Of a stretch of 64,000 bases of DNA, positions 4,476 through 55,994 are shown in pieces. The notes beneath the pieces are model-generated. The model searched no databases and was not told the DNA's origin. It saw only the letters and a list, made by a program, of their open reading frames with translations. The stretch comes from Streptomyces sp. SID10853 (GTDB lineage Bacteria > Actinomycetota > Actinomycetes > Streptomycetales > Streptomycetaceae): positions 1 through 64,000 of the forward strand of contig NZ_JAAGLN010000005.1 in NCBI RefSeq assembly GCF_010548145.1, in the 5' to 3' direction. Both the position numbers and the translations under genes were made by a program. Positions within the stretch are counted from its first letter, which is position 1; each line of letters starts with the position of its first letter.

Positions 4476-4505
4476 TTGACAGTAAAATCGAACAGCCGTT
4501 CTTAT
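4476..4505 (+). promoter_or_regulatory. LexA (SOS) box within an upstream recA promoter
   Basis: A TTGACA -35-like element at 4476-4481 is followed by CGAAC-AGCC-GTTCT at 4489-4502, nine of ten positions of the Gram-positive/actinobacterial LexA consensus CGAAC-N4-GTTCG. The box overlaps the spacer and the -10 zone (about 4499-4505), so bound LexA would block this promoter. Confidence 0.75.
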
Positions 4506-4588: not shown

Positions 4589-4611
4589 TTGTCAGTGGCA
4601 GGGGTTAGCGT
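4589..4611 (+). promoter_or_regulatory. RecA-NDp/PafBC-type damage promoter of recA
   Basis: TTGTCAGTG (4589-4597), an 8-base spacer, then TAGCGT (4606-4611) fit the TTGTCRGTG-N8-TAnnnT promoter known from S. rimosus and M. tuberculosis recA. In mycobacteria this element is used by the LexA-independent activator PafBC. The predicted start of transcription is near 4618, about 37 bases upstream of the recA ATG. Confidence 0.85.
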
Positions 4612-4654: not shown

Positions 4655-5791
4655 ATGGCAGCAGGCAACGACCGCGAGAAGGCGCTGGACGCCGCTCTCG
4701 CCCAGATTGAACGGCAATTCGGCAAGGGCGCGGTCATGCGCCTGGGCGAGCGGCCCAACGAACCCATCGAGGTCATCCCCACGGGGTCGACCGCGCTCGA
4801 TGTCGCCCTCGGCGTCGGCGGACTGCCGCGTGGCCGGGTGGTCGAGGTGTACGGTCCGGAGTCCTCCGGCAAGACGACGCTGACGCTGCACGCGGTGGCG
4901 AACGCCCAGCGGCTCGGCGGCCAAGTGGCCTTCATCGACGCGGAGCACGCGCTGGACCCCGAGTACGCGAGGAAGCTCGGCGTCGACATCGACAACCTCA
5001 TCCTGTCCCAGCCGGACAACGGCGAGCAGGCGCTGGAAATCGTCGACATGCTGATCCGTTCCGGCGCGCTCGACCTGGTCGTCATCGACTCCGTCGCGGC
5101 TCTGGTGCCGCGTGCGGAGATCGAGGGCGAGATGGGCGACTCGCACGTGGGTCTGCAGGCCCGGCTGATGAGCCAGGCGCTCCGCAAGATCACCGGCGCG
5201 ATGAACCAGTCCAAGACCACCGCGATCTTCATCAACCAGCTCCGCGAGAAGATCGGCGTCATGTTCGGCTCTCCGGAGACCACCACCGGTGGCCGGGCGC
5301 TGAAGTTCTACGCCTCGGTCCGGCTCGACATCCGCCGGATCGAGACCCTGAAGGACGGCACCGACGCGGTCGGCAACCGCACCCGCGTGAAGGTCGTCAA
5401 GAACAAGGTTTCGCCGCCCTTCAAGCAGGCCGAGTTCGACATCCTCTACGGCCAGGGCATCAGCCGCGAGGGCGGTCTGATCGACATGGGCGTGGAGAAC
5501 GGCTTCGTACGCAAGGCGGGCGCCTGGTACACGTACGAGGGCGACCAGCTGGGACAGGGCAAGGAGAACGCGCGGAACTTCCTGAAGGACAACCCCGATC
5601 TCGCCAACGAGATCGAGAAGAAGATCCTGGAGAAGCTGGGCATCGGTGTCCGGCGGGAGGCCGAACTCGGAGCCGAGCCGGAGGCGGACGCCGCAGGCGC
5701 CGTTGTGGCCGACGAGGCAGCGAAGACGGTTCCCGCTCCGGCGGCCGGTGGCAAGGCCAAGGCGGCCAAGACCGCCGCGGCCAAGAGCTGA
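4655..5791 (+). CDS. recA: Recombinase RecA
   Basis: Homologous recombination protein and LexA co-protease, 378 residues. Walker A GPESSGKT is at residues 67-74, with [22 protein letters not shown] (Walker B and loop 1) and [30 protein letters not shown] (loop 2) in order, and an Ala/Lys-rich actinobacterial tail. ATG 4655 was chosen because GGTGGA lies five bases upstream and the protein then begins [15 protein letters not shown] like other Streptomyces RecA; an in-frame start at 4589 would sit inside the promoter. Expression should respond to damage by two routes, LexA and PafBC. recX follows three bases after the stop. Confidence 0.98.
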
Positions 5792-38189: not shown

Positions 38190-38212
38190 TTGTCAGTGCT
38201 GCACCGTAGGGT
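38190..38212 (+). promoter_or_regulatory. RecA-NDp/PafBC-type promoter of the DinG-like helicase
   Basis: TTGTCAGTG (38190-38198), an 8-base spacer and TAGGGT (38207-38212) match the consensus completely. The predicted start of transcription is about three bases before the ATG at 38222, so the mRNA is nearly leaderless. Confidence 0.87.
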
Positions 38213-38221
38213 GGTTCCGCT

Positions 38222-40192
38222 ATGACGAAGCCCTCCCTCCCCGAGCTCCTGCACGCCGCCGTCACCGCTGTGGGCGGTACGGAGCGGCCCGGCCAGGTCA
38301 CCATGGCCGAGGCTGTTGCCGAAGCCGTTGACGACAACGCCCACCTGCTGGTCCAGGCCGGCACCGGTACCGGAAAGTCGCTGGGGTATCTGGTCCCCGC
38401 GCTGGCCCACGGTGAGCGCGTCGTGGTGGCCACCGCGACGCTCGCACTCCAGCGGCAGCTCGTGGAGCGGGACCTCCCGCGTACGGTCGAAGCCCTGCAC
38501 CCACTGCTGCGGCGGCGGCCTCAGTTCGCCATGCTGAAGGGGCGGTCGAACTACCTGTGTCTGCACCGCCTCCATGAGGGCGTGCCGCAGGAAGAGGACG
38601 ACGGGCTGTTCGACCAGTTCGAGGCGGCTGCGCCCACCAGCAAGCTCGGCCAGGACCTGCTGCGTATGCGGGACTGGGCGGACGAGACGGAGACGGGCGA
38701 CCGTGACGATCTCACTCCGGGCGTCTCCGACCGTGCCTGGGGCCAGATCTCGGTCTCCTCGCGGGAATGTCTCGGGGCGAGCAAATGCGCCTACGGCGCC
38801 GAGTGCTTCGCCGAGGCGGCGCGCGAGCGGGCCAAGCTCGCCGACGTCGTCGTGACCAACCACGCCCTGCTTGCCATCGACGCGATCGAGGGCGCGCCGG
38901 TCCTCCCGCAGCACGAGGTGCTGATCGTGGACGAGGCCCATGAGCTGGTCTCGCGGGTCACCGGAGTCGCCACGGGCGAGCTCACTCCGGGCCAGGTCAA
39001 CAGGGCTGTAAGGCGTGCTGCGAAGCTCGTCAACGAGAAAGCGGCGGACTCGCTCCAGACCGCTTCCGAGACCTTCGAACGGGTGATGGAGCTGGCGCTC
39101 CCCGGCCGGCTTGAGGAGATCCCGGAGGACCTCGGATATGCGCTGATGTCCCTGCGGGACGCGGCCCGAACGGTCATCTCGGCCATCGGCGCCACCCGGG
39201 ACAAGTCCGTGCAGGACGAGGACGTCGTACGGAAGCAGGCACTGGCGTCCGTCGAGTCCATCCACGATGTCGCCGAGCGGATCACTCTCGGATCGGAGTA
39301 CGACGTCGTCTGGTACGAGCGTCATGACCGTTTCGGCGCTTCGCTGCGGGTCGCTCCGCTCTCCGTTTCGGGGCTGCTCCGGGAGAAGCTCTTCGCCGAG
39401 CGCTCGGTGGTCCTCACCTCGGCGACGCTGAAATTCGGCGGCGATTTCAACGGGGTGGGTGCTTCGCTCGGACTCTCCCCCGAGGGCACGGAAGGGGAGG
39501 ACGCCCCGCAGTGGAAGGGCCTGGATGTCGGCTCGCCCTTCGACTATGCGAAGCAAGGCATTCTGTATGTCGCCAAACACCTCTCGGCACCTGGCCGGGA
39601 GGGATCGCGTACGGACATGCTGGACGAGCTCGCTGAACTGGTCGAGTCGGCGGGCGGCCGCACGCTCGGTCTCTTCTCGTCCATGAGGGCCGCGCAGGCA
39701 GCCGCCGAGGAGCTGCGCAGCAGGCAGGACAGGCGAGTGCTGCTCCAGGGCGAGGAGACACTCGGTGAGCTGATCAAGAATTTCGCGGCCGACCCGGAGA
39801 CCTGCCTCTTCGGAACGCTGTCGCTCTGGCAGGGAGTCGATGTGCCGGGGCCCAGCTGCCAGCTCGTGGTGATGGACCGTATTCCCTTCCCGCGCCCGGA
39901 CGACCCGCTGATGAGCGCGCGGCAGAAGGCGGTCGAGGAGGGCGGTGGCAATGGGTTCATGGCCGTTGCCGCGACGCATGCCGCTCTGCTCATGGCGCAG
40001 GGCGCCGGCCGGCTGGTCAGGGCAATGGGGGACCGCGGTGTCGTCGCGGTGCTGGATCCCCGGCTGGCCACCGCGCGCTACGGCAGCTATCTGAGGGCTT
40101 CGCTGCCCGACTTCTGGTTCACCACGGACCGTAATCAGGTCCGTCGGTCACTGGCCGCGATCGACGCGGTGGCCAAGGAGACCGGCCAGTAG
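38222..40192 (+). CDS. DinG/XPD-type ATP-dependent DNA helicase
   Basis: A 656-residue superfamily 2 helicase. Walker A is QAGTGTGKSLGYLVPAL, the DEAH box IVDEAHELVSRV, motif III/IV VVLTSATLKFGG, and motif VI region SLWQGVDVPGPSCQLVVMDRIPFPRPDDPL with AQGAGRLVRAMGDRGVVAVLDPR. Four cysteines near residues ~115-200 (NYLCLHR, RECLGASKCAYGAECFAEA) fit the iron-sulfur cluster of DinG/XPD. It should unwind damage-related structures such as R-loops or forks. The PafBC-type promoter 10 bases upstream indicates damage induction. It is convergent with lexA. Confidence 0.92.
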   Translation: MTKPSLPELLHAAVTAVGGTERPGQVTMAEAVAEAVDDNAHLLVQAGTGTGKSLGYLVPALAHGERVVVATATLALQRQLVERDLPRTVEALHPLLRRRPQFAMLKGRSNYLCLHRLHEGVPQEEDDGLFDQFEAAAPTSKLGQDLLRMRDWADETETGDRDDLTPGVSDRAWGQISVSSRECLGASKCAYGAECFAEAARERAKLADVVVTNHALLAIDAIEGAPVLPQHEVLIVDEAHELVSRVTGVATGELTPGQVNRAVRRAAKLVNEKAADSLQTASETFERVMELALPGRLEEIPEDLGYALMSLRDAARTVISAIGATRDKSVQDEDVVRKQALASVESIHDVAERITLGSEYDVVWYERHDRFGASLRVAPLSVSGLLREKLFAERSVVLTSATLKFGGDFNGVGASLGLSPEGTEGEDAPQWKGLDVGSPFDYAKQGILYVAKHLSAPGREGSRTDMLDELAELVESAGGRTLGLFSSMRAAQAAAEELRSRQDRRVLLQGEETLGELIKNFAADPETCLFGTLSLWQGVDVPGPSCQLVVMDRIPFPRPDDPLMSARQKAVEEGGGNGFMAVAATHAALLMAQGAGRLVRAMGDRGVVAVLDPRLATARYGSYLRASLPDFWFTTDRNQVRRSLAAIDAVAKETGQ

Positions 40193-45489: not shown

Positions 45490-46608
45490 ATGAGCGAGAC
45501 GACCGGGATAGGACTGCCCGGATCACCGACAACACTGTTCGACCATGCCCTCCGGCTGCATCAGCTGGCTCCGGGGGAGCCGCTTCATCGCGACGGGGAG
45601 CCGTACCCCGACGACGGGTCGCACCGTCACCGGAAAGGCCCGCGAGTACCTGAGGACCGGCGCTCGGTCGGCAAGGACGCGGCGTTCATCCTCGATGCAC
45701 ATTTCGCGCGGGCCTCTGCCCTTCCGGGTGCATTGGCCGATGCCTTCCACGACGTCTACATCCCAATCCACCCCAACGAGCACATCGCCGCTGCAGCCGA
45801 GCAGGCGGACAGAGAGCGCGTTCGCCAAACGGGCCGCTGGCTGGTGCGACATGGCACCGACCGATGCTCGGTCACCGTGGGACTGGCCCTGCTCGCTGCC
45901 GTGGGAACAGCCGATGACATCCCGTTGATTCAAACGATCGGCCTGCTCTCCAACCGCTTCGGGCCACTGGCGGCGCATGCTTTCGAGAGTCGGCCAGGAG
46001 GAGTTGAGGCCCTGCTCTGGCTTGCCGAGCGAGTCACCGGCTGGGGACGCGTCTATGTCGTCGAAGCTCTCTGCAGACTCGACGACCCGGCTGCCCGACC
46101 GTGGCTGCTTCGCAGGGCCTGCGACGGCGACTTCCTCAACGGATATTTCGCCGGCCAGGTCGCCACAGTCGCCAGACTCCATGAGGCGCTTGCAGACCTT
46201 GATACCGACAGCGAGATGGTCGACCACATCGGTCGACTGCTCCATCTGATGAGCGACTGCGGGGGAATGGGGCTCACCCTCGCTCACTACCCCCATTCGA
46301 GAGCGGTCCTAGAAGCTCATGCTCGCCATGTCGGTGCGCTCAGCCCGACGATCGAGCGCTACTTTACGGCCGCGGTGCTCACTCAACACCTGACCACGGA
46401 GCCTCCCGAGGCTGCGGGGTGCACTGCGACTCAGCAGGAAGCGCTCCGAGAGACGTACCTCGAAGTCCTCGACCGAGAGGAGTGGACCGAGACGGCACGC
46501 GCCGGGTTCACGGCGGATGACAACCGGATGCGATGGCTCGCCGACCACCGGGCGCCGCGGTTGAGGCTGCGTGCGTTCCCCGATCGAGAGCCGGATGCCG
46601 AGGAATAG
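45490..46608 (+). CDS. Hypothetical helical-repeat-like protein of lower GC
   Basis: A 372-residue protein that I do not recognise. It begins MSETTGIGLPGSPTTLFDHALRLHQL from ATG 45490; an in-frame start at 45388 is possible but would cross the region just after the nrdJ terminator. Alpha-helical segments such as VGLALLAAVGTADDIPLIQTIGLLSNRFGPLAAHAF and GWGRVYVVEALCRLDDPAARPWLLRRAC suggest a HEAT-like, protein-interaction fold. No catalytic motif. By eye its base composition is less GC-rich, with more A/T at third positions than its neighbours, which suggests a more recent arrival. Confidence 0.65.
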   Translation: MSETTGIGLPGSPTTLFDHALRLHQLAPGEPLHRDGEPYPDDGSHRHRKGPRVPEDRRSVGKDAAFILDAHFARASALPGALADAFHDVYIPIHPNEHIAAAAEQADRERVRQTGRWLVRHGTDRCSVTVGLALLAAVGTADDIPLIQTIGLLSNRFGPLAAHAFESRPGGVEALLWLAERVTGWGRVYVVEALCRLDDPAARPWLLRRACDGDFLNGYFAGQVATVARLHEALADLDTDSEMVDHIGRLLHLMSDCGGMGLTLAHYPHSRAVLEAHARHVGALSPTIERYFTAAVLTQHLTTEPPEAAGCTATQQEALRETYLEVLDREEWTETARAGFTADDNRMRWLADHRAPRLRLRAFPDREPDAEE

Positions 46609-51500: not shown

Positions 51501-52133
51501 TCAGCGGGCCGCGACCCGTCGGAGCGCGGCGGGCGCACCCGAACGGAGTGCTGCCGGGGGCGTGTCGGCGGTGCTGCGGCCGATGCCGGCCGGACGGGAC
51601 AGCAGGTTGGGCCGGCGCCCGCCGCGTCCTTCGCCGAGTACCTGCCAACCGCCACGGGTGAGCGTGATGTACGCGCCGCAGCGCAGCCCGTGCAAAGTGC
51701 AGGCATCACGCAGCCCCCACATCCAGGCGCCGTCCTCCTCGGTCCATCGTTCGTCCCCCTCGCGGCAGTAGAGCAGTACGGCGGTGCGAACCGGCGTACG
51801 CCGGCGCAGGTCATGGGGGACGATGCGGCGCAGATGGTCGAGAAGCGCGTTGCGGAGGACCCAGCCGTCCGTCGGCTGGGCATGGCGGGTGAACGAGGCG
51901 CTGGCGACCAGCCGTTCCTCGTGGTTGAGGACGGCCACGACGGCGGTCGAAGCGCTGGGGCGGTGCCTGGAATGCAGGCCGACCACGACGTCGCGCGGGC
52001 TGCGGAGCAGGGGGATGCCCGCGGCAGCCCACTCGGCAGGTTCGAGCAGGCGCCCGGTCCTGTGGCCCGAGTCGGCGGACTTGAAGGTGGAAGAGGGTGT
52101 CAGGGCTGCGGACGGAGCGAATCCGAAGGTCAC
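51501..52133 (-). CDS. Conserved hypothetical protein with JAB/RadC-like pattern
   Basis: A 210-residue protein of unknown function. GTG 52133 is well supported by GGGAGGACC immediately upstream. The middle (RDVVVGLHSRHRPSASTAVVAVLNHEERLVASASFTRHAQPTDGWVLRNALLDHLRRIVPHDL) alternates beta strands and a long helix, recalling JAB/RadC folds, but the metal-binding HxH-x7-S-x2-D motif is not present. The C-terminal ~40 residues are basic and low in complexity. It faces the preceding gene and diverges from the RecQ-like gene. Confidence 0.62.
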   Translation of the reverse strand: MTFGFAPSAALTPSSTFKSADSGHRTGRLLEPAEWAAAGIPLLRSPRDVVVGLHSRHRPSASTAVVAVLNHEERLVASASFTRHAQPTDGWVLRNALLDHLRRIVPHDLRRRTPVRTAVLLYCREGDERWTEEDGAWMWGLRDACTLHGLRCGAYITLTRGGWQVLGEGRGGRRPNLLSRPAGIGRSTADTPPAALRSGAPAALRRVAAR

Positions 52134-52508: not shown

Positions 52509-52531
52509 TTGTCAGTGGCATCGGGTTGCAT
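52509..52531 (+). promoter_or_regulatory. RecA-NDp/PafBC-type promoter of the RecQ-like helicase
   Basis: TTGTCAGTG (52509-52517) and an 8-base spacer precede TTGCAT (52526-52531), which differs from TAnnnT by one base. The predicted start of transcription falls at the ATG of 52539, so the transcript would be leaderless. Confidence 0.75.
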
Positions 52532-52538
52532 GGGGGAC

Positions 52539-54686
52539 ATGGACCATCTGGAGCTCCGCACCGAAGCCGACACCATCCTCGCTGAGCTCGTCGGTGACCC
52601 GGGGGGCTCGGCGAGGCTGCGGGAGGACCAGTGGCAGGCGGTGGCGGCCCTGGTGGAGGAGCGCCGGCGTGCGCTGGTGGTGCAGCGCACCGGCTGGGGA
52701 AAGTCGGCGGTGTACTTCGTGGCCACCGCCCTGCTGCGCCGGCGCGGCGCCGGGCCGACAGTGATCATTTCGCCGCTGCTGGCGCTGATGCGGAACCAGG
52801 TCGAGTCGGCGGCGCGGGCCGGAATCCAGGCGCGCACCATCAATTCCGCCAACCCGGAGGAATGGGAGACGATCTACGGAGAGGTCGAGCGCGGCGAGAC
52901 CGACGTCCTCCTCGTCAGTCCGGAACGGCTGAACTCCGTGGACTTCCGCGATCAGGTGCTGCCCAGGCTGGCGGCCACGACCGGTCTGCTGGTCGTGGAC
53001 GAGGCGCACTGCATCTCCGACTGGGGCCACGACTTCCGTCCCGACTACCGCCGGCTGCGGGCGATGCTGGCCGAGCTGCCCGCCGGGGTGCCGGTGCTGG
53101 CCACGACGGCGACCGCCAACGCGCGGGTGACGGCGGACGTGGCGGAGCAGCTGGGCACCGGCACGGGCGAGGCGCTGGTCCTGCGCGGCCGGCTGGACCG
53201 GGAGAGCCTGCGGCTCGGGGTGGTCCAGCTGCCGGACGCCGCGCACCGTCTGGCGTGGCTCGCCGAACACCTGGATGACCTTCCGGGTTCCGGAATCGTC
53301 TACACCCTCACCGTCGCCGCGGCCGAGGAGGCCACCGCGTTCCTGCGCCAGCGCGGCTTCAAGGTGGCCTCGTACACCGGGAAGACGGAGAACGCCGACC
53401 GGCTGCAGGCCGAGGTCGACCTCAAGGAGAACCGGGTCAAGGCCCTGGTGGCGACATCGGCGCTCGGCATGGGGTACGACAAGCCTGACCTGGGCTTCGT
53501 GGTGCATCTGGGCTCGCCCTCGTCGCCGATCGCCTACTACCAGCAGGTGGGGCGTGCGGGGCGTGGTGTGGCGCACGCCGATGTGCTGCTGCTGCCGGGC
53601 AGGGAGGACGAGGCCATCTGGCGGTATTTCGCGGATACGGCCTTCCCGCCCGAGACCCAGGTGCGACAGACCCTCGCGGCGCTCACCGAAGCGGGCCGGC
53701 CGCTGTCCGTGCCGGCTCTGGAGGCGGCTGTGGATCTCCGGCGCAGCCGGCTGGAGTCGATGCTGAAGGTGCTGGATGTCGACGGCGCGGTGAAGCGGGT
53801 GAAGGGCGGCTGGACGGCCACCGGAGCCGAGTGGGTGTACGAGGCGGACCGCTATGCGTGGGTCGCCAAGCAACGGGCCGCCGAGCAGCAGGCCATGCGG
53901 GACTACGCGAGCACGTCCCAGTGCCGGATGGAGTTCCTGCGCCGGCAACTGGACGACGAGGGGGCGGTCCCGTGCGGCCGTTGTGACAACTGCGCGGGAG
54001 CCTGGGCCGATTCCGCTGTCTCGGCGGAGGTGCTGACGGGGGCGGCGAAGGAACTGGACCGTCCCGGGGTCGAAGTCGAGCCGCGCAGGATGTGGCCGAC
54101 CGGGATGCCCGCGCTGGGCATCGACCTCAAGGGGCGTATCCCGGCCAAGGAGCAGTGCGCCACGGGGCGAGCGCTGGGGCGGCTCTCCGACATCGGCTGG
54201 GGCAACCGGCTGCGCCCGCTGCTGGCGGAGACCGCACCTGACGGGCCGGTTCCCGACGATGTCCTGCGGGCAGCGGTGGCGGTCCTCGCTGACTGGGCGC
54301 GCTCCCCGGGCGGCTGGGCGTCGAACACCCCGGACGCCGCCCCCCGGCCGGTGGGCGTCGTCGCTGTGCCGTCCCTGTCCCGGCCGCAACTGGTCGGTTC
54401 CCTCGCTCAGGGGATTGCGGCCGTGGGCCGTCTTCCCTTCCTCGGCACCCTGACGTACACGGAGCCGGACGGTGCGCACGCGGCGCGCCGCAGCAACTCC
54501 GCCCAACGGCTGAGGGCGCTGTCCGGCGCCTTCAGCGTCCCGGAGGGGGTGGCCGGTGCCTCCGGTCCTGTCCTCCTCGTGGACGACTACACCGACTCGG
54601 GCTGGACCCTCGCGGTCGCTGCCCGGCTTCTCCGCCAGGCCGGCAGCGAGCAGGTCCTTCCGTTGGTCCTCGCAGCGGCGGGCTGA
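52539..54686 (+). CDS. RecQ-like DNA helicase with C-terminal phosphoribosyltransferase-like domain
   Basis: A 715-residue superfamily 2 helicase. It has Walker A RTGWGKSAVYFVATAL, the DEAH box VVDEAHCISDWGHDFRPDYRRL, TTATANARVTADV, and the second domain ATSALGMGYDKPDLGFVVHLGSPSSPIAYYQQVGRAGRG. RecQ-type zinc cysteines follow (CRMEFLRRQLDDEGAVPCGRCDNCAG). Residues ~590-715 are an addition: VGVVAVPSLSRPQLVGSLAQGIAAVGRLP and VLLVDDYTDSGWTLAVAARLLRQAGSEQVLPLVLA, the PRPP-loop pattern of phosphoribosyltransferases. ATG 52539 fits the promoter best; 52530 is also in frame. Confidence 0.88.
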   Translation: MDHLELRTEADTILAELVGDPGGSARLREDQWQAVAALVEERRRALVVQRTGWGKSAVYFVATALLRRRGAGPTVIISPLLALMRNQVESAARAGIQARTINSANPEEWETIYGEVERGETDVLLVSPERLNSVDFRDQVLPRLAATTGLLVVDEAHCISDWGHDFRPDYRRLRAMLAELPAGVPVLATTATANARVTADVAEQLGTGTGEALVLRGRLDRESLRLGVVQLPDAAHRLAWLAEHLDDLPGSGIVYTLTVAAAEEATAFLRQRGFKVASYTGKTENADRLQAEVDLKENRVKALVATSALGMGYDKPDLGFVVHLGSPSSPIAYYQQVGRAGRGVAHADVLLLPGREDEAIWRYFADTAFPPETQVRQTLAALTEAGRPLSVPALEAAVDLRRSRLESMLKVLDVDGAVKRVKGGWTATGAEWVYEADRYAWVAKQRAAEQQAMRDYASTSQCRMEFLRRQLDDEGAVPCGRCDNCAGAWADSAVSAEVLTGAAKELDRPGVEVEPRRMWPTGMPALGIDLKGRIPAKEQCATGRALGRLSDIGWGNRLRPLLAETAPDGPVPDDVLRAAVAVLADWARSPGGWASNTPDAAPRPVGVVAVPSLSRPQLVGSLAQGIAAVGRLPFLGTLTYTEPDGAHAARRSNSAQRLRALSGAFSVPEGVAGASGPVLLVDDYTDSGWTLAVAARLLRQAGSEQVLPLVLAAAG

Positions 54687-54926: not shown

Positions 54927-55994
54927 TCAGTGGGCGAAGCCCCAGTCGAGCATCTTGGTGGCGTCGTCGAACCGCGCCTTGTCAGTGGTGTCCCCGAGGA
55001 CCACACCGACCAGAGTGCGGTTGTCACGCTTGGCGGCGAAGACGACGCAGTAGCCGTCCTCCGGGCCGCTGCCGGTCTTGACGCCCAGGGCTCCGTCGTA
55101 GCTGCCCAGCAGCTCGTTGGTGGTGTTCCAGGTGTAGTACCGGGTGTGGCCGTTGGCCGCCGGAGCCTCCGTCTTGTACTGCTTGTCCTTCACGATGTCG
55201 GCGAACACCGGCTGCAGCATTGCGCGCTGGCCGAGCTTGGCCAGGTCACGGGCGTTGCTGTGGTTGTTGCCGTGCGAGATGCCGTCGAAGGTGTCGAAGT
55301 GCGTGCCGGTCAGGCCCAGCTGCTGCGCTTCGACGTTCATCTGGTTCACGAAGTCGGCGATCCGCGCGTCCTGGGTGTCGCCGGCGCCGAAGTTGTCGGC
55401 CAGCGCCATTGCGGCGTCGTCGCCGGACGGGATCAGCATGGCGTGCAGCATCTGCTCGACCGTCAGAGTGTCGCCGGTCTGCAGGTCGGCGGTGCTGCCG
55501 CCGGCCTTCTGCACGTAGTCCCGGTAGTCCTGCTTGACCACGACCGGCCGGTTCAGCCACTCCGGGTGCTTGAGCACCACCAGGGCGGTCATGATCTTGG
55601 TGGTGCTCGCCATCGGCACGCTCTCGTCGGCCTTGGCCCCGGCCCACATCTCCCGCTCCTGGCTGCCGTCGCGGGCGTCCAGCAGATAGGCGTGATCGGC
55701 GCTGATGCTGGGGACGGCCTGGTCCTTCGGGTCCTGCGTGCCGGCGGCCCGGGCCTTGACGGAGTGCTGTGCCGTCTGGGCAGGCTGGGACTGCTGCGCG
55801 GCCTGCTTCTGTCCGGCCGGAGCCGTGGCCTCGCTGCCGCCCTGGCCGTTGTCGTCGGCGGAGTGCGTGGCACCGGGGGTGGCTGCCTCGGCGAGGCCAC
55901 CGGCGGTGATCGGCAGGGCGACTCCGACGAGGGCGGCCGTCGCGATCCGGACCCCGGTGCGGTGTATCCGGTTGGGGCGGGCGTGGGAACCCAT
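54927..55994 (-). CDS. D-alanyl-D-alanine carboxypeptidase (low-molecular-weight PBP, S11)
   Basis: A 355-residue secreted cell-wall enzyme that trims peptidoglycan stem peptides. The signal peptide is MGSHARPNRIHRTGVRIATAALVGVALPITAGGLAEA. A Gln/Ser/Thr/Pro-rich linker (~60 residues) precedes the transpeptidase fold, with SxxK in MASTTKIM, the second motif as SGD (IPSGDDAAMALA) and KTG in GVKTGSGPEDGY. ATG 55994 has AAGGG seven bases upstream. The promoter region contains two perfect palindromes. Confidence 0.92.
   Translation of the reverse strand: MGSHARPNRIHRTGVRIATAALVGVALPITAGGLAEAATPGATHSADDNGQGGSEATAPAGQKQAAQQSQPAQTAQHSVKARAAGTQDPKDQAVPSISADHAYLLDARDGSQEREMWAGAKADESVPMASTTKIMTALVVLKHPEWLNRPVVVKQDYRDYVQKAGGSTADLQTGDTLTVEQMLHAMLIPSGDDAAMALADNFGAGDTQDARIADFVNQMNVEAQQLGLTGTHFDTFDGISHGNNHSNARDLAKLGQRAMLQPVFADIVKDKQYKTEAPAANGHTRYYTWNTTNELLGSYDGALGVKTGSGPEDGYCVVFAAKRDNRTLVGVVLGDTTDKARFDDATKMLDWGFAH

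Follow-up and report, generated by a model that had tools for sequence, protein, structure and literature searches.

A Candidate RecA-NDp-Type Promoter with a Variant -10 Hexamer and a Leaderless Layout Before a recQ-like Gene of Streptomyces

Layout of the recQ Upstream Region

The window, which here means the whole stretch of 64,000 nucleotides of Streptomyces DNA that was analysed, carries a gene for a RecQ-like protein (recQ below). The elements found directly before this gene are as follows.

52509..52517, + strand: upstream box TTGTCAGTG, a -26 element of the RecA-NDp/PafBC type, with the core TGTCAG at 52510-52515
52518..52525, + strand: spacer GCATCGGG, 8 bases between box and hexamer
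52526..52531, + strand: -10-like hexamer TTGCAT, a recQ-specific variant of TANNNT
52532..52538, + strand: GGGGGAC, the 7 bases from the hexamer to the start codon
52539..54686, + strand: recQ-like gene, 715 aa, with its ATG as the predicted transcription start (leaderless)

Direct reading of the sequence gives TTGTCAGTG at 52509-52517, followed by 8 bases, TTGCAT, 7 bases and the ATG at 52539, exactly the arrangement before recQ that a preliminary description of this DNA had reported (52509-52541). The TGTCRG core box of RecA-NDp/PafBC-dependent promoters lies on the coding strand (TGTCAG, 52510-52515), and its distance to the -10 is that of the class, TTGTCRGTG-N8 or, counted from the core, TGTCRG-N10. 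The TANNNT -10 of these promoters is present at recA and dinG and is replaced at recQ by TTGCAT, which departs from it at a single position, the second base.

In leaderless genes, the -10 element lies 6-8 nt before the start codon. The distance in the window is 7 nt, and there is no Shine-Dalgarno sequence at a working distance, as the G run upstream of recQ stops 2 nt short of the ATG, which is too close for Shine-Dalgarno function. A leaderless start of recQ is a well-supported prediction from the sequence. Another ATG at 52530, in frame with ATG 52539, may provide an alternative start in the window.

Sister Sites and Distribution of the Motif

Two further sites with the same architecture are located in the window, each ahead of a gene for a DNA-processing protein.

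4589..4611, + strand: site before recA, TTGTCAGTG-N8-TAGCGT, the same bipartite pattern
4667..5791, + strand: recA, ATG at 4667
38190..38212, + strand: site before the DinG/YoaA-like helicase gene, TTGTCAGTG-N8-TAGGGT, with the ATG 9 nt further
38222..40192, + strand: DinG/YoaA-like helicase gene (dinG below), ATG at 38222

The promoter type that had been proposed as common to the recA, DinG-like and recQ genes is thus present before all three (sites at 4589, 38190 and 52509). The bare 9-mer TTGTCRGTG occurs five times in the window and the bipartite form TTGTCRGTG-N8-TNNNNT three times; the 9-mer copies at 54979 (+ strand, antisense within a D-Ala-D-Ala carboxypeptidase gene) and at 45524-45532 (- strand) are both without a -10-like hexamer at N8. 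When 2000 first-order Markov windows of the same composition were simulated, 31 bipartite sites appeared in total and no window held three. The window's own genome (7.77 Mb, 521 contigs) contains 22 matches to the bipartite pattern, against 2 for the reversed control pattern, and the claim that three copies exceed chance is upheld at both scales. In the stricter TANNNT form the counts are 18 against 0 in this genome and 2504 against 9 over 101 Streptomyces genomes, the own genome included and S. venezuelae not among them by name. All 101 sampled genomes possess sites, from 9 to 44 each with a median of 22. The spacing is equally strict: with the gap allowed to vary from N4 to N12 in four genomes, 94 of 96 matches had exactly N8, and the reversed control gave 7. 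Chance coincidence is ruled out by the window simulation, the genome and genus excess, and this strict N8 spacing. The same figures replace one part of the preliminary description, in which the three genes formed a small local regulon; what is found instead is a genome-wide set of 22 sites, with counterparts in every sampled Streptomyces genome.

Replication, repair or nucleotide genes follow 12 of the 22 own-genome sites, namely rarA, ruvC, thyX, rpsF (with ssb behind it), ung, dnaX, a DEDDh exonuclease gene, recA, dinG/yoaA, recQ, the gene of an AlkZ-like glycosylase, and uvrB. The remaining 10 precede genes for a SWIM-domain protein, a DrrA-like ABC ATPase, an ABC permease, an ECF sigma factor, PhoH, a WGR protein, a short-chain dehydrogenase (just below the cut-off) and three proteins without a recognised family. 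Start codons for the 22 sites were set by inspecting the open frames, and three doubtful sites (L009, L012 and L022) were counted as non-repair. At an assumed background share of 5% for such genes, the binomial probability of 12 of 22 is near 1e-10. The preliminary description had staked its argument on the motif not being just as frequent away from repair genes, and the genome-wide scan, with 12 sites before replication or repair genes and 10 elsewhere, leaves that argument standing.

In 9 of the 22 sites, the hexamer is followed by the assigned start codon after 6-9 nt, which makes the leaderless layout common in this set. One such site is canonical, TTGTCAGTG-N8-TATCGT with the ATG 7 nt on, and belongs to the AlkZ-like DNA glycosylase gene (contig 500, L019 1501-1533). 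At another (contig 44, L004 1501-1533), a daunorubicin-resistance-type ABC ATPase gene stands behind TTGTCAGTG-N8-TCTGAT-N7-ATG, leaderless in layout and with a -10 that does not begin with TA; this site is a possible link from the damage response to drug efflux, to judge by the sequence. The exact motif becomes sparse outside the class, with any match in 53 of 198 genomes of the phylum, compared with 87 of 118 in the class.

Conservation Before recQ in Relatives

The recQ footprint was followed in 80 relatives (76 named Streptomyces, which is the ground for assigning the window to this genus, two Actinacidiphila, and Kitasatospora and Wenjunlia as the rest), and counts refer to 79 loci, as one (L084) is without upstream sequence. 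In 79 of 79, TTNNAT lies 6-7 nt before an in-frame ATG, where the count was anchored on an in-frame ATG at most 240 bases upstream of the aligned start and then required TTNNAT; against the background of all ATGs in the 80 loci on both strands, 83 of 8970 have TTNNAT at this distance, a figure that includes the 79. The leaderless layout predicted earlier for recQ is thus repeated in every locus counted. The hexamer is TTGCAT in 53 loci, TTGTAT in 19, TTACAT in 4 and another form in 3, and it is separated from the ATG by 6 bases in 53 and by 7 bases in 26. These two distances put the hexamer in different frames relative to the gene, so its conservation is not that of a coding sequence. Conserved coding through the element from ATG 52530 or from a TTG upstream is rejected for most relatives on the same ground.

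The upstream box is conserved in position. TGTC is found in the exact register in 70 of 79 loci, among them 49 of the 52 that make up the more distant of two recQ lineages, and a box match of at least 7/9 is found at register 0 in 60 of 79 and in none of the 79 at the eight other registers (-6, -4 to -1, +1 to +3). The fourth spacer position is T in 75 loci and the fifth is C in 70, both nearly fixed, and at 8 or more bases upstream of the box all alignment columns have 0.61 bits or less. One of the column alignments was anchored on TTGNAT itself and is circular for those columns; another was anchored on the box together with T, A and T of the hexamer. A leaderless promoter would be expected to give such a comparative picture. 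Nine of the 79 loci have lost TGTC and kept TTNNAT, six of these belonging to the closer lineage (27 loci), so that the hexamer is either independent of the box in places or has another role. This loss is the strongest point against universal control of recQ by PafBC.

The promoters of the three genes were compared in 31 genomes of the genus, the own genome included, giving 30 loci for each gene. At recA, the full box and TAGCGT are present in 30 of 30. At dinG, the box matches 9/9 in 20 loci and 8/9 in 10, with TAGGGT in 23 and TAGGCT in 7. The recQ box is less conserved than either, with 9/9 in 6 loci, 8/9 in 10 and at most 7 in 14, and its hexamer is TTGCAT, TTGTAT or TTGGAT in 29 of 30, the exception (L182) having its best score at an unrelated place and being counted as not TTNNAT. 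The second -10 position is T in all 79 recQ loci, while TAGNNT is found in 30 of 30 recA and 30 of 30 dinG loci. A pattern built on the recQ form, NTGTCRGNG-N8-TTGYATGG, occurs once each in 47 of 101 genomes with one control match overall, and in all 14 of the 47 in which recQ was located it lies at recQ.

The preliminary description had treated TTGCAT as a hexamer one base away from the consensus. The mismatch is real, but it is more than a mere mismatch, being a fixed feature of recQ (79 of 79). The TT-type -10 is a fixed recQ property in the relatives examined, across two lineages about 75% identical. Because the hexamer was compared with the -10 consensus and differs from it, recQ is not filed as a canonical member of the class; its promoter is best called a fixed variant working like the class.

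Relation to Known Promoter Classes and the PafBC Regulator

The RecA-NDp promoter is traced to Ahel 2002 and Gamulin 2004 (via PMC2375139, PMC5087735 and PMC8223512), and the S. rimosus recA promoter is quoted as TTGTCAGTGGCN6TAGggT (PMC2375139). It shares with the sites described here the TTGTCAGTG box, the 8-base spacing and the place before repair genes, and the window's recA and DinG-like sites match it with TAGNNT included. The recQ site differs from it in having TTGCAT for TAGggT and its ATG at the predicted start. A RecA-NDp promoter is also described before SCO6735, a gene reported as UV-inducible (PMC5087735). The SIGffRid set of recA-like motifs in S. coelicolor comprises 67 genes, including homologues of dinG, recQ, ung and uvrB; in the accessible text of that paper, variant -10 elements and leaderless starts are not discussed (PMC2375139). 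Its recQ homologue is possibly the counterpart of the gene described here, this genome having a second RecQ-like match, 39% identical.

In Mycobacterium tuberculosis, the PafBC motif is TGTCGG, TGTCAG or TGTCAC followed by N10 and TANNNT (PMC8151990), and PafBC, activated by single-stranded DNA, adapts the housekeeping sigma factor to promoters with a -26 motif (PMC11804915). According to the accessible parts of PMC8151990, PMC11804915 and PMC6789036, the mycobacterial promoter and the recQ site have in common the TGTCRG core, a distance of 10 bases from it to the -10, and a genome that encodes PafB and PafC; they differ at the second -10 base, which is T at recQ. A demonstration of PafBC dependence in Streptomyces was not found in those parts of the mycobacterial literature. 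For S. venezuelae, Stratton et al. 2022 wrote that, judging from an initial search, the PafBC motif of M. smegmatis did not seem to be conserved, and the RecA/LexA-independent damage response of Streptomyces is left open in the accessible text (PMC9380542). The strict spacing, the excess of 2504 over 9 and the presence of sites in 101 of 101 genomes make this open Streptomyces question directly testable and supply a list of genes for the purpose.

Both PafBC subunits are encoded in the window's own genome, close to the Pup ligase gene.

L109 7613-8716 and 6640-7650, - strand: two adjacent WYL proteins, PafB and PafC by their best PDB matches
L109 10298-11659, - strand: pafA (Pup ligase), about 1.6 kb from pafB/pafC, with an FKBP-type isomerase frame between

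For the WYL pair, the top PDB matches are chains of 7p5x, 9fnd and 6sj9, labelled PafC, PafBC or "transcriptional regulator-like protein". The entry 6sj9 is named PafBC in the match table, and 7p5x is presumably the mycobacterial PafBC complex. Across 118 genomes of the class, at least two sites are found in 60 of the 104 that have a PafC match, compared with 1 of the 14 that lack one; genome size, completeness and kinship confound this comparison. The single PafC-less genome with at least two sites is 78% complete, and 24 of the 104 have no exact site. The association is confounded but suggestive.

Taken with the layout and conservation described above, this leads us to read the recQ site as a promoter of the RecA-NDp (PafBC-dependent) kind in leaderless layout, with a probability of roughly 0.7. 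Its standing as a damage promoter is drawn from likeness to the RecA-NDp/PafBC class, and we likewise infer the acting factors (PafBC and HrdB), induction by damage, the exact transcription start and a low basal activity. Under this proposal, single-stranded DNA arising after DNA damage would activate the PafB-PafC heterodimer, and PafB would read the TGTCAG box about 26 bases upstream and hold the housekeeping holoenzyme with sigma HrdB on a promoter without a normal -35. The holoenzyme would then open the DNA at TTGCAT, and transcription would begin on the A of ATG 52539 or on a neighbouring base, so that the mRNA is leaderless. With T in place of the usual A at the second -10 position, the recQ promoter is expected to have little strength of its own and to depend more heavily on the activator. 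As a natural variant, this -10 should report how far an activator can offset the loss of the usual A.

The new point here is the T fixed at the second -10 position of recQ; the promoter class, and a motif list with a recQ homologue, are already in print. No description of the TT-type -10 of recQ was found in the literature searched, whose reach ended short of subscription papers and supplements. The search likewise returned no published data on mitomycin or damage induction of Streptomyces recQ, and no paper joining recQ, Streptomyces and leaderless genes.

A wider interpretation, which is possible although we would not bet on it, is a genus-wide PafBC regulon in which recQ, as a fusion of a helicase with a phosphoribosyltransferase-like domain, would be driven by a fixed promoter variant peculiar to it (second -10 base T, spacer TC, leaderless start). 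Selection would maintain this variant so that RecQ is made only when the activator is engaged, and the variant would persist in both recQ lineages, which are about 75% identical.

Alternative Explanations

The same promoter class might be read by an alternative (ECF) sigma factor of the SCO4895/SLIV_13900 type instead of HrdB with PafBC. Among S. lividans start sites is a class in which a 12-nt spacer separates TGTC from TANNNT and replication and repair genes are over-represented, and about 20% of S. lividans genes are leaderless (PMC6742748). The authors credit the class to that alternative sigma factor and note no peak for a 12-nt spacer in the S. coelicolor HrdB regulon (PMC6742748). As far as the accessible text goes, the class resembles the sites described here in TGTC plus 12 bases plus -10, in its replication and repair enrichment and in the frequency of leaderless genes, and it differs in its -10, TANNNT, and in having a sigma factor and not PafBC as the authors' cause; it looks like the same promoter class. 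One of the 22 own-genome sites does precede a SigX5-type ECF sigma gene, but a sigma gene behind such a promoter can equally be a target. Moreover, the PafBC motif of M. tuberculosis has the same box, spacing and -10, the genome carries pafB and pafC close to pafA, and S. lividans promoters in general have a TANNNT -10; we consider control by such a sigma factor unlikely.

About as improbable is a second alternative, that the TTGYATGG preceding the ATG is conserved independently of the box, as a weak constitutive promoter or the site of another factor; TGTC would then be an addition that varies with lineage, and in many species the gene would not respond to damage. The hexamer region is indeed more conserved than the box in both lineages, the spacer T and C are nearly fixed as well, and the nine loci that keep TTNNAT without TGTC fit such an element. 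Against this stand the exact register of TGTC in 70 of 79 loci, including 49 of 52 in the more distant lineage, the failure of the box to reach 7/9 at any of the eight other registers tested, and the fall of conservation to 0.61 bits or less from 8 bases upstream of the box outward.

Membership of recQ in the LexA SOS regulon is very improbable, for although lexA lies within the window and an SOS-like box is present upstream of recA at 4488-4503, TCGAACNNNNGTTCGA with up to 3 mismatches is absent from the 500 bases upstream of 52539, its nearest upstream match lying at 51786 with 3 mismatches. The recA-side box, TCGAACAGCCGTTCTT with 2 mismatches, is 163 bases before recA, near the position of the S. 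venezuelae recA SOS box, which is reported at -162 (PMC9380542); recA may therefore be under both LexA and a RecA-NDp promoter. The reading of the recQ site as a promoter of the RecA-NDp (PafBC-dependent) kind is the one retained.

The RecQ-like Protein and Its Lineages

The RecQ family is defined by a DEAD and Helicase_C core with a RecQ zinc-binding region, and the window's protein has all of these (PF00270, PF00271 and PF16124), PF16124 scoring 26.3 against a cut-off of 25 and TIGR00614 reaching 224.6 bits against a cut-off of 219.8. Structural comparison of the model (mean pLDDT 68) returns RecQ catalytic cores, for example 4q48_B with Z 31.6, rmsd 3.1 and 386 aligned residues. An HRDC domain is found in many, though not all, RecQ members. 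Pfam gives no HRDC row for this protein at E up to 0.001, and a missing row is not proof of a missing domain.

The C-terminal part (54024-54683, + strand) resembles a type I phosphoribosyltransferase domain. The Pfam Pribosyltran model stays below its cut-off there, with 21.1-22.8 of 26.3 bits. Among the structural matches listed for this part (model mean pLDDT 69), adenine and other phosphoribosyltransferases predominate, together with PRPP amidotransferase, PRPP synthetase and PurR; the best is 5vjn_A (Z 9.3, rmsd 3.2, 138 aligned), and Helicobacter pylori ComF reaches Z 8.5. On these models, the C-terminus looks like a type I phosphoribosyltransferase-like domain. A literature search found no paper on a RecQ with a phosphoribosyltransferase domain in Actinobacteria.

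SCO5815 is presumably the S. coelicolor counterpart of the window's recQ-like gene. SCO5815 is included in the HrdB regulon list of PMC6344877 and in an expression table of PMC3897704, which is not from a damage experiment.

The two recQ lineages are about 87% and 75% identical to the window's recQ, and both lie near dinG; in several genomes compared, the orientation of recQ relative to dinG is opposite between them. In one genome (G028, contig 986, L173), a 5'-truncated recQ of the second lineage (residues 126-713) stands head-to-head just upstream of a complete first-lineage copy, a pair that suggests either replacement at one locus or a fragmented assembly.
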